DNA from: Christiangramia sediminis | GTDB lineage: Bacteria > Bacteroidota > Bacteroidia > Flavobacteriales > Flavobacteriaceae | Direction of reading: 5' to 3' | Length of the DNA stretch: 64,000 nt | Assembly: GCF_020552705.1 (NCBI RefSeq) | Contig: NZ_JAJBZG010000001.1 | Coordinates: 124,001 to 188,000, forward strand | Part shown: positions 48,213-50,150 of the stretch, in pieces | Layout: every line of letters begins with the position of its first letter | Position numbering within the stretch: the stretch's first letter is position 1 | Notes under the pieces: model-generated | Seen by the model: only the letters and a program-made list of their open reading frames with translations | Databases searched by the model: none | What the model was told of the DNA's origin: nothing | Program-made: the position numbers and the translations under genes

Positions 48213-49406
48213 TTATTGTTTGTTAGTTAGTTTAGCAATTCCTTTTCCTTCTATGGCTACATAGATATTTCCGTCGGGTCCCTGTCTAACATCTCTCATT
48301 CTTCCAGAGTCTTCCAGCAATTTAATTCTTTTTTTGATCTTTTTACCGTCAAGTTCCAAAAGTTCCAGGTATTGAAATTTTAGAGAGCCTACCAAAAGAT
48401 TACCTTTTAATTCGGGAAACTTATCTGAAGTAACATAGGCAAATCCACTTGGAGCGATAGAAGGCAACCAATAGAAGATAGGATCTTCCATATCTGGTTT
48501 AGACCTTTCGTCTGTAATTGAGGTACCGCTATAGTTTTCACCATAGGTCACTACGGGCCAGCCATAATTAGCTCCTTTTTTAACTACATTTATTTCATCT
48601 CCGCCCTTTGGGCCATGCTCATGTACCCAGATCTCACCGGTTTCAGGATTCAAAATCATTCCCTGAGGATTACGATGACCATAAGAATAAATGGCTTCTA
48701 CCGCATTTTCCTGTCCAGCAAATGGATTATCTGAAGGTATACTTCCATCATCATTCAATCTATAAACCTTCCCATTATCACGGGTAATATCTTGCGGATT
48801 AACATCGCGTTCCCCACGTTCCCCGGCACTGAAATATAAATACCCCTCTTTATCAAAAGCGATCCTTGAACCAAAATGCTGTCCTTTAGTAGTATTTGGG
48901 GAAGCTTTATAAAGAACCTCTTTATTTGTGAGTTGATTGCCTTCTAATTTAGTGCGCATCAAGGCAGTATTACCGCCATCTCCTTCACCTTCTTTTGAAG
49001 CATAACTGAAATAGATCCAAGCATTGCTTTCGTAATCTGGATGTATAACTACATCTAATAATCCGCCCTGGCCACGATCATAAACTTCTGGTCCTCCCTG
49101 AATTTCAGTTTTCTTACCGTCCTTAAAATGAATAATATCACCATTCTTTTCAGTAATAAGCATACTGTCATCGGGTAGAAAAGTAAAGCCCCATGGGATC
49201 TTAAGGCCTTCTACCACCATTTCATAAGAATACTTATCTGAACTTTCGGCAGGAATAGGATCCGGAACTTCAGTGGGTTCCTGAGTTTGTTCTTCTCCAG
49301 TTTCTTCCACATTTTCTTCGACCTGCGCCTTATCAGAATTAGTATCATTCTCACCACAGGCAATTAGACTCAAAGCAAGTCCCGAAACCATTAAAAATCT
49401 TTTCAT
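48213..49406 (-). CDS. PQQ-dependent sugar dehydrogenase (soluble GDH/YliI-like) lipoprotein
   Basis: 397 residues. Lipoprotein signal with Cys17 (SLIAC) followed by an acidic Glu/Thr linker. The six-bladed propeller domain of the GSDH family starts near residue 58 (GLKIPWGFTFLPDDSMLITE), with LDVVIHPDYESNAWIYFSY, GQHFGSRIAFDKEGYLYFSA, YGHRNPQGMILNPETGEIWV and EHGPKGGDEIN, which hold the catalytic His and cofactor contacts. Oxidises aldoses using PQQ. PQQ synthesis genes are not in this window. Confidence 0.92.
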   Translation of the reverse strand: MKRFLMVSGLALSLIACGENDTNSDKAQVEENVEETGEEQTQEPTEVPDPIPAESSDKYSYEMVVEGLKIPWGFTFLPDDSMLITEKNGDIIHFKDGKKTEIQGGPEVYDRGQGGLLDVVIHPDYESNAWIYFSYASKEGEGDGGNTALMRTKLEGNQLTNKEVLYKASPNTTKGQHFGSRIAFDKEGYLYFSAGERGERDVNPQDITRDNGKVYRLNDDGSIPSDNPFAGQENAVEAIYSYGHRNPQGMILNPETGEIWVHEHGPKGGDEINVVKKGANYGWPVVTYGENYSGTSITDERSKPDMEDPIFYWLPSIAPSGFAYVTSDKFPELKGNLLVGSLKFQYLELLELDGKKIKKRIKLLEDSGRMRDVRQGPDGNIYVAIEGKGIAKLTNKQ

Positions 49407-49470
49407 AGAATAAAATTAAGGGTATTAAAAGCATTAAGCGAACTAAGATATAAAAAATTAAAAGTTTTCA

Positions 49471-49499
49471 TTGCGGGAGATGAATAATTCTTATATTTG
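49471..49499 (+). promoter_or_regulatory. Promoter of the tRNA-Pro/GIY-YIG locus (TTG-N18-TATATTTG)
   Basis: TTG 49471-49473 and TATATTTG 49492-49499 fit the two-part consensus. It lies 30 bp upstream of the truncated tRNA copy, so it was presumably the original tRNA-Pro promoter. Confidence 0.65.
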
Positions 49500-49528
49500 C
49501 CGCCCAATAATGGTTGAAAGATCATTTT

Positions 49529-49556
49529 CGGGGTGTAGCGTAGCCCGGTTATCGCG
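49529..49556 (+). repeat. Direct repeat, left copy (tRNA-Pro 5' end)
   Basis: A 28-bp perfect repeat of 49831-49858; the copies are 302 bp apart and flank the GIY-YIG gene. Confidence 0.95.
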
Positions 49557-49590
49557 TCCCGCCTGAAGCGGGAAGGTCGCCGAAGCCTAA
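49529..49590 (+). pseudogene. Degenerate tRNA-Pro copy (5' half)
   Basis: Positions 49529-49556 are identical over 28 bp to the acceptor 5' strand and D-arm of the intact tRNA-Pro at 49831. Beyond that the sequence still folds as a stem-loop (TCCCG-CCTGAAG-CGGGA) where the anticodon arm should be, then reads AGGTCGC (AGGCCGC in the intact gene), but a proper T-arm and the 3' acceptor strand are absent. The loop also lacks the invariant T33. It should not make a working tRNA-Pro. Confidence 0.75.
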
Positions 49591-49602
49591 GTGAAAAAGG
49601 AA

Positions 49603-49845
49603 ATGTTTGTATACATTCTTTTTAGCGAAAAAAGTTCAAGATATTATGTAGGTCAGACTACAGATATCATAGAAAGATTGAAAAGACACAATTCAGGGAG
49701 AGTAAAATCTACTAAGCATGGATTACCCTGGAAAATTGTTTTGTGCATGGAAGTTTTAAATCGATCTGAAGCAGTACTTTTAGAGTCGAAAATTAAAAAA
49801 CGAGGTGCAAAACGATATATAGATGACCATCGGGGTGTAGCGTAG
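49603..49845 (+). CDS. GIY-YIG nuclease family protein inserted at tRNA-Pro
   Basis: 80 residues from ATG 49603 (MFVYILFSEKS); a GTG at 49591 would add four residues. The domain shows VYIL (GIY position), YYVGQTTDI (YIG position), conserved Arg in IIERLKRHNSG, and the catalytic-type Glu in NRSEAVLLESKIKKRG. It is a minimal UvrC/Slx1-type nuclease domain without a separate DNA-binding domain. The last five residues (HRGVA) and the stop are encoded within or next to the 5' end of the intact tRNA-Pro. It is transcribed in the tRNA direction. Homing-like behaviour is inferred from the layout only. Confidence 0.85.
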   Translation: MFVYILFSEKSSRYYVGQTTDIIERLKRHNSGRVKSTKHGLPWKIVLCMEVLNRSEAVLLESKIKKRGAKRYIDDHRGVA

Positions 49846-49858
49846 CCCGGTTATCGCG
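49831..49858 (+). repeat. Direct repeat, right copy (tRNA-Pro 5' end)
   Basis: A 28-bp perfect match of 49529-49556, forming the first 28 bases of the intact tRNA. Confidence 0.95.
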
Positions 49859-49905
49859 CCTGCTTTGGGAGCAGGAGGCCGCAGGTTCGAATCCTGCCAC
49901 CCCGA
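49831..49905 (+). tRNA. tRNA-Pro (anticodon TGG)
   Basis: 75 nt cloverleaf. Acceptor CGGGGTG/CACCCCG, anticodon stem CCTGC/GCAGG with loop TTTGGGA giving anticodon TGG, T-arm GCAGG-TTCGAAT-CCTGC, discriminator A at 49905. CCA is not encoded. Its first 15 bases overlap the 3' end of the GIY-YIG gene. Confidence 0.97.
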
Positions 49906-49928
49906 CGAACCACCTCATAAGTGGATAC

Positions 49929-49966
49929 AAAACACTGTTAATCTCTTGATTTTCAGTGTTTTTTTA
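49929..49966 (+). terminator. Probable terminator after tRNA-Pro
   Basis: AACACTG ... CAGTGTT stem (16-nt loop) followed by a T-rich tract. Confidence 0.55.
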
Positions 49967-50150
49967 TTTTGTACCATTCTATCTGATCTTTTATAACTTC
50001 CCGTGCTTCCGTAAATTCTTTTTTAATCTCATTTCTTTACCTTCGATAACTATTCTCGTTAATTAATTTTCGTGGATAAAAATCAATTATTTATGCCTCG
50101 ATTGGTTTGCGCAGTTTTAACTTTAGTGCATCATAACTTTCAATAGCAGC

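Follow-up and report, generated by a model that had tools for sequence, protein, structure and literature searches.

Our results support the model that a 302-bp unit in the genome of Christiangramia sediminis is one member of a family of homing-endonuclease-like cassettes that are minimal and selfish, reside in tRNA genes and leave the tRNA intact. We consider this reading likely (probability roughly 0.68), with the cutting and the movement that it entails inferred. The unit lies on the + strand, as do all features described here, at positions 49529-49830 of the window (the whole 64,000-nucleotide stretch that we analyzed), and it abuts on its right an intact tRNA-Pro(TGG) gene (49831-49906; Rfam match 49831-49905, 69.2 bits), identical full-length copies of which are present in most genomes of the genus. 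A repeat search of the window identified an exact 28-nt direct repeat (49529-49556 and 49831-49858) with a spacing of 302 bp, embedded in a longer 38-nt repeat of 89% identity. The left copy, which forms the left end of the unit, matches nt 1-28 of the tRNA over all 28 nt (100%). Reading the sequence onward, there follow a 17-nt hairpin, TCCCG-CCTGAAG-CGGGA (49557-49573), that replaces the anticodon arm of the tRNA and is paired in an RNA fold of the left copy, and then the tRNA-like 7 nt AGGTCGC, where the tRNA has AGGCCGC, with the leader of the nuclease ORF (49574-49602). The units of three other genomes (G001, G009 and G004) carry a hairpin identical or nearly identical to this one. The ORF itself (49603-49845) encodes an 80-residue GIY-YIG nuclease, as identified by Pfam, an AlphaFold model and conserved residues, and it runs 15 nt into the intact tRNA such that its final codons and its stop, a TAG at tRNA nt 13-15, are tRNA bases. 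At another locus (L148) two extra bases 5' of the tRNA shift the nuclease stop to tRNA nt 8-10.

The promoter region of the tRNA-Pro gene (49471-49499) includes a -7 box, TATATTTG, at 49492-49499, which we take to be a Bacteroidota-type promoter element, and a stretch resembling this region precedes the tRNA at most of the orthologous sites that we printed. The box lies 5' of the left copy and is the only TAnnTTTG box on the + strand within 49400-49840; the likely tRNA promoter must therefore read through the unit. Accordingly, we think it likely that the tRNA-Pro transcript passes through the unit from this upstream promoter, although the promoter type rests on general knowledge and there are no transcription data. 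Between the promoter and the left copy is the leader that normally sits just 5' of the tRNA start (49510-49528); it forms a hairpin with perfect 4-5 bp stems in several relatives, whereas the window's own leader has only a 3-bp stem. Downstream of the tRNA, an inverted-repeat search found a terminator-like inverted repeat that is followed by a T run read from the sequence (49929-49962). An earlier note, made from the window sequence alone, had described the 28-base repeat, the intact right-hand tRNA, the ORF ending in tRNA bases and the readthrough layout, and all of these held. It took the left copy to be the first 28 bases of the tRNA, and this we correct: the copy is longer, continuing through the hairpin into AGGTCGC. 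The copy alignment of the window unit itself ends at nt 28, and the likeness of AGGTCGC was read by eye.

The nuclease unit is patchy at this site and is not fixed in the genus. In our set of 24 genomes, the tRNA-Pro site, anchored on the upstream dehydrogenase gene, was readable in 21 (G008, G019 and G020 could not be placed, and the contig ends inside the tRNA in G004, G021 and G012). Four of the 21 carry the nuclease unit (G000, which is the window genome, G001, G009 and G004), 12 are empty (G014, G022, G017, G011, G005, G018, G023, G002, G016, G010, G006 and G012) and five have nothing beyond short units or remnants that lack the nuclease (G015, G013, G007, G003 and G021). At the empty sites nothing separates the leader from the one intact tRNA-Pro, and a second 28-mer was limited to nuclease-bearing loci among those scanned for it. 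The earlier note had predicted such clean presence and absence among relatives, and would have been refuted by both repeats persisting without the nuclease or by a cassette fixed in all relatives; neither was seen. Two of the nuclease-bearing sites, in G009 and G004, carry a further short unit, without a nuclease, on the left side of the nuclease-bearing one. In a tree of the neighboring gene, G000 groups with G007, which has a short unit and no nuclease, G001 and G009 group with the empty G018, and G004 groups with the empty G010. Repeated gain and repeated loss from an ancestral insertion are both possible histories of this site. The most similar pair of units, those of G001 (Christiangramia aestuarii) and G009 (C. 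gaetbulicola), differ by two mismatches in 300 bp while the upstream gene is 87% identical. This pair is not usable as proof of transfer, as the downstream ORFs are also very similar (dS of 0.03, 0.08 and 0.23; 93-100% identity from +500 to +1300).

The second tRNA-Pro locus lacked a nuclease wherever we read it in the genus; nuclease-less units occur there in G013 and G003, and G008 has such units at both tRNA-Pro loci. At L039, L049, L050, L053, L055, L130, L132 and L134, tRNA-Pro is preceded by stacks of short nuclease-less units that start with the 5' end of this tRNA (CGGGGTGTAG). Many of the units end in a tRNA-adjacent hairpin whose arms covary (AATTGC/GCAATT, AAATAGCT/AGCTATTT and TTTAGC/GCTAAA). 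The window genome's own second tRNA-Pro locus is L145; there the 40 nt that precede the tRNA resemble the tail of a short unit, with a AATTGTGCAAACAATT hairpin, and there is no second CGGGGTGTAG in the 600 bases upstream.

A second target in the genus is tRNA-Phe, a site that we could read in all 24 genomes. Nuclease cassettes lie downstream of this tRNA in G016, G015, G009 and G013; in G002 the nuclease match is weaker and comes with a distal tRNA fragment. G010 has a partial match where a contig ends, and a separate contig (L101) carries three further copies of the nuclease together with 3' fragments of tRNA-Phe. G018 is empty here and its relative G009 has a two-nuclease array, and the G018 flank past the terminator resumes in G009 past the distal fragment and terminator. 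G013 and G010 have native-type terminators in duplicate, and in G009 an element-type terminator is present on either side. The native-type duplications could also have arisen by local duplication.

Beyond the genus, a family search returned matches in 153 of 397 genomes. We read 110 family loci, taken nearly in rank order from the match list; those left unread include at least G235:C6, G289:C6, G371:C7, G407:C2, G418:C1, G283:C1 and G249:C11:116122. A tRNA gene lies within 25 bp in 66 of the 110, within 120 bp in 88 and within 500 bp in 103, and four of the seven loci without a tRNA within 500 bp are near a contig end (L160, L173, L180 and L181). In all 176 of the matches that have a tRNA within 500 bp, the nuclease and the nearest tRNA share a strand. 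As a control, low-scoring small GIY-YIG genes of the genus had no tRNA within 500 bp at any of 47 loci, while 13 of 15 higher-scoring genus loci had one within 120 bp. This control is imperfect, since genes were split by their score against a profile built on tRNA-linked proteins, and there is an exception: a GIY-YIG gene scoring 53 (L321, in G002) adjoins tRNA-Arg with a tRNA copy. In a sample of the Bacteroidota, 163 of 395 genomes had matches and 26 of 29 newly read loci had a predicted tRNA within 500 bp. These 29 loci are a returned subset of the matches, several are from the same family, one (L312) repeats another (L189), and the tRNA-Cys in L299 and other odd tRNA predictions were taken unverified. 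A named scan yielded 36 loci, among them loci from Gillisia, Arenibacter, Lutibacter, Algibacter and one metagenome-assembled genome (MAG) of Spirosoma, and loci with partial tRNA copies from MAGs that are labelled Omnitrophota, Saganbacteria and Dojkabacteria (L284, L285 and L286). Related GIY-YIG genes lie within ~130 bp of tRNA genes at L284-L289, labelled as these three groups, WWE3, Wolfebacteria and an unplaced bacterium, with clear tRNA copies in L284-L286 only. Binning errors are possible in these MAG assignments. Among phages and plasmids, the only matches to the nuclease were four phage and two plasmid records, all from Listeria and ~41-42% identical. Placement beside tRNA genes and a patchy distribution are shown for these nuclease cassettes, and the expectation in the earlier note that the same nuclease would be found beside other tRNA genes was borne out at many of them.

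The tRNA target differs between genomes, and nuclease lineages are associated with particular isotypes. On a tree of 157 nuclease proteins, 142 of them labelled, tRNA isotype and side together required 43 changes against a shuffled mean of 99.5, with none of 200 shuffles as low. Individually, Pro (5' side) required 11 changes against 42.9, Arg 10 against 22.6 and Phe 2 against 6.9; the Ser, Leu and Asn labels, with few rows each, did not cluster. The strength of this signal is inflated by near-copies and few columns, near-identical loci that two collections hold for the same organisms are each included, and the His, Ser(gct), Gly and some Pro 3' labels are partly artefacts of the nearest-tRNA rule or of contig ends. 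A Gillisia MAG has the unit at two tRNA-Pro(TGG) loci, with coding sequences 96.7% identical, and the genes neighboring these loci match the window site and the window genome's second tRNA-Pro site. Between the window and Gillisia, the nuclease is 86% identical at the amino acid level with a dS of 0.38, and the adjacent dehydrogenase is 75% identical with a dS of 2.5, near saturation; the cassette has therefore diverged less than its neighbor. These data are consistent with spread between species and between loci, although they remain short of proof.

The nuclease scores 51.7 bits against Pfam GIY-YIG (PF01541; cut-off 22.6), and Y15, G17, R25, H29, E61 and K65 are invariant across 31 aligned sequences. 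With a score above the curated cut-off and the catalytic R25 and E61 conserved, it qualifies as a member of the superfamily, although the third catalytic residue, an Asn, could not be placed. The AlphaFold model of the 80 residues is one compact domain (mean pLDDT 94.5), in which there is no DNA-binding module separate from the catalytic domain, unlike I-TevI, which carries extra DNA-binding modules beside its catalytic domain (PMC2988022). The best Foldseek match is UPF0213 protein BH0048 (PDB 1zg2; E 1.2e-3, 31% identity), and the best matches among solved structures also include Slx1 and the I-TevI catalytic domain, all of them weak and none at E<=0.001. Slx1 cuts branched DNA, and structure-aided recognition of tRNA-gene hairpins by the nuclease is therefore conceivable; this possibility rests on analogy, without binding data.

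The gene is under constraint (dN/dS of 0.21-0.31 between the window nuclease gene and its relatives) and some copies are decaying, with a stop in 12 of 155 family matches. Conservation and constraint of the protein, together with the likely co-transcription with the tRNA at the window site, would also be expected of a host function, in which a cellular enzyme is kept by tRNA genes, for example to act on their locus or transcript, and is passed on vertically but often lost. We regard this explanation as unlikely: presence is patchy inside one genus, the tRNA concerned varies among genomes, some copies decay, the nuclease is less diverged than the adjacent gene, and just one of the six PF01541 matches in the window genome shares a locus with a tRNA.

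The architecture of the units is consistent across the family. A partial copy of the same tRNA is present on the far side of the nuclease in 109 of 123 units (200 shuffles each, p<0.01). These copies span eleven isotypes, with His and Ser represented once each, and the 14 units in which no significant copy was detected include three of the four beside tRNA-His. The test left out nucleases scoring below 55, regions with N runs, six loci that duplicate others, and units whose tRNA lay farther away than 60 bp for the 5' type or 160 bp for the 3' type. Two forms exist, one with the nuclease 5' of the tRNA and 5' fragments, the other with the nuclease 3' of the tRNA and 3' fragments. Copies of the 5' type start at tRNA nt 1-2 in 68 of 86 and end at nt 22 (14), nt 27-28 (14), nt 32-39 (21) or nt 51 (21), while 19 of the 23 copies of the 3' type stop no more than 2 nt from the 3' end of the tRNA.

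Many copies are also altered by hairpins. In many Arg, Ala, Met and Leu copies a hairpin is inserted at tRNA nt 22|23 or 8-11, and in others it replaces an arm, the anticodon arm in the window and the T arm in L148. Insertions of at least 10 nt are present in 47 of the 109 copies, and the insertion folds better than shuffles (p<=0.05) in 31 of the 109. Stems of at least 6 occur in 98 of the 109 copy regions versus 208 of 545 random windows from the same loci; long perfect stems (at least 9) are not in excess (7/109 versus 30/545). The idea that these hairpins belong to a genome-wide repeat family was rejected: CCTGCCTG-N(2-12)-CAGGCAGG, the one palindrome type scanned, has 11 sites, confined to four of the 24 genus genomes, and is absent from the window genome. 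By reading, four of these sites are beside tRNA genes (two with a GIY-YIG gene), two flank a tRNA-less GIY-YIG gene and five do neither. L357 (G008) is a locus without a tRNA; its GIY-YIG gene, which scores lower, has the same 20-bp palindrome on each side, and this palindrome also occurs inside some tRNA copies. L359 and L355 contain 5' ends of tRNA-Arg (nt 1-22) and, by reading, tRNA-Trp that are interrupted by a palindrome; these directly precede intact tRNA genes without a nuclease.

The altered copies raise the possibility of toxin-antitoxin-like addiction, in which the nuclease acts on tRNA-like RNA and the altered tRNA copy serves as a decoy or antidote RNA. In its favor, at least one copy (L148) folds as a complete cloverleaf with its T arm replaced (z -2.59). 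The window's left copy was rejected as a folded tRNA-like RNA: it folds no better than shuffles (z -0.39). Rfam reports no match at this copy at E<=1, the interval 49300-50100 yielding solely the intact tRNA. Many copies comprise only the 5' or 3' part of a tRNA, and the GIY-YIG superfamily is described as nicking or cleaving DNA (PMC2988022). We consider addiction very unlikely.

Arrays of two to five nucleases are found at 24 of the 110 family loci, some with near-constant spacing (for example 349, 349, 349). Tandem 5' fragments of tRNA-Arg and tRNA-Pro, spaced 78 and 66-81 bp, occur at L245 and L161, respectively; each run contains an N stretch and a hairpin, lacks a nuclease and lies immediately before an intact tRNA. 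Near-constant array spacing is what tandem duplication would produce and, with the existence of nuclease-less units that start with the tRNA 5' end and the duplicated native-type terminators in G013 and G010, it is compatible with a passive passenger, whereby nuclease and tRNA fragments spread or duplicate by ordinary homologous or slipped recombination and the nuclease has no role in its own movement. Against this are the constraint on the nuclease, the tracking of tRNA isotype by nuclease groups, and the occurrence of one gene type at many isotypes in several phyla, which is hard to obtain passively; the nuclease-less units could themselves be derivatives. The passive explanation thus appears unlikely to us, and we favor the selfish-cassette model.

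The closest known systems are phage SegB and the fungal mitochondrial mobile ORFs. SegB has been implicated in the breakage of DNA that contains tRNA genes, and it causes a tRNA-segB unit to amplify in tandem (PMC13096335, PMC2988022). The 5' end of the tRNA and the 3' end of segB share microhomology, and no isotype preference is reported (PMC13096335). The window family resembles SegB and other free-standing GIY-YIG homing endonucleases of T-even phages in its GIY-YIG catalytic fold and in the location of the gene among tRNA genes, and it shares with them a gene outside introns that is polymorphic for presence at a conserved target. Unlike SegB, its proteins are single domains (80 aa in the window), its lineages track isotype, it resides in bacterial chromosomes and its units each include a partial, often hairpin-altered tRNA copy. 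The fungal mobile ORFs, of the Allomyces atp6 type and in Glomus atp6, atp9, cox2 and nad3, the atp9 case encoding a GIY-YIG enzyme, similarly place an endonuclease ORF between a functional gene end and the displaced native copy, so that the host gene is restored; they differ in targeting protein genes in mitochondria and in carrying a foreign end (PMC3630166). The relevant passages of that study mention no tRNA, hairpin-altered copy or array. The cassette layout fits the Allomyces type, but the tRNA-Pro copies are identical and a carried substitute end is therefore indistinguishable there from a target duplication, two alternatives that the earlier note had offered and that remain undecided. 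Tyrosine recombinases insert genomic islands into tRNA genes such that a partial tRNA duplication flanks the insert and the tRNA stays functional. The window unit shares these properties but lacks a recombinase, the GIY-YIG gene being the sole listed ORF of at least 50 aa that overlaps the 302 bp. The unit does not qualify as a group I intron with a homing endonuclease, as the tRNA is uninterrupted and Rfam finds no intron in 49300-50100 (E<=1). Small UPF0213-type proteins such as BH0048 provide the best structural match, but the other small GIY-YIG genes of the genus, whose UPF0213 identity is not established, differ from the window family in lacking a nearby tRNA at all 47 control loci. In the open-licence literature that we searched, judged mostly by title and the start of the abstract, we found no description of chromosomal GIY-YIG genes with partial tRNA copies.

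How such cassettes would move is inferred. We envision a cassette composed of a single-domain GIY-YIG gene and part of its target tRNA gene, a part that a hairpin often interrupts or alters. The nuclease of the cassette would break an intact tRNA gene of the isotype specific to its lineage. Repair of the break by recombination with a cassette-bearing template, the tRNA halves providing homology, would place the cassette beside the tRNA, with an intact tRNA rebuilt on one side and a partial copy on the other. The altered copy would be a poor tRNA or target while the intact tRNA would remain a target or recombination site, and further cassettes, nuclease-bearing or not, could stack into tandem arrays. 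Recombination between the repeats may delete a cassette and restore the empty site. Cleavage, insertion driven by repair, clean excision and a role for the hairpins are all predictions of this scheme, and the proposal in the earlier note of a self-inserting element that cuts and restores a tRNA gene is thus supported with the cutting still inferred. Weighing against the model, no cleavage or movement has been observed, DNA-binding modules of the I-TevI type are absent, and the intact tRNA should still be cuttable, leaving self-protection unexplained.

A bolder reading, to which we give even odds, is that these cassettes constitute an unrecognized class of bacterial mobile element of ~300-400 bp, with one gene, lineage-specific for one or a few tRNA isotypes, bearing a partial, often hairpin-altered tRNA copy, stacking into arrays and shedding nuclease-less derivatives, across the Bacteroidota and several other phyla. 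If the model is correct, it would raise the question of how the intact tRNA avoids being cut. It would also explain the tRNA fragments and tRNA-linked arrays in Bacteroidota genomes, offer compact and possibly tRNA-specific nucleases for study, and provide a testable chromosomal counterpart of SegB-driven amplification in phages. The tRNA genes of many bacteria would then be a habitat for tiny, one-gene selfish elements that exploit an essential gene while sparing it.
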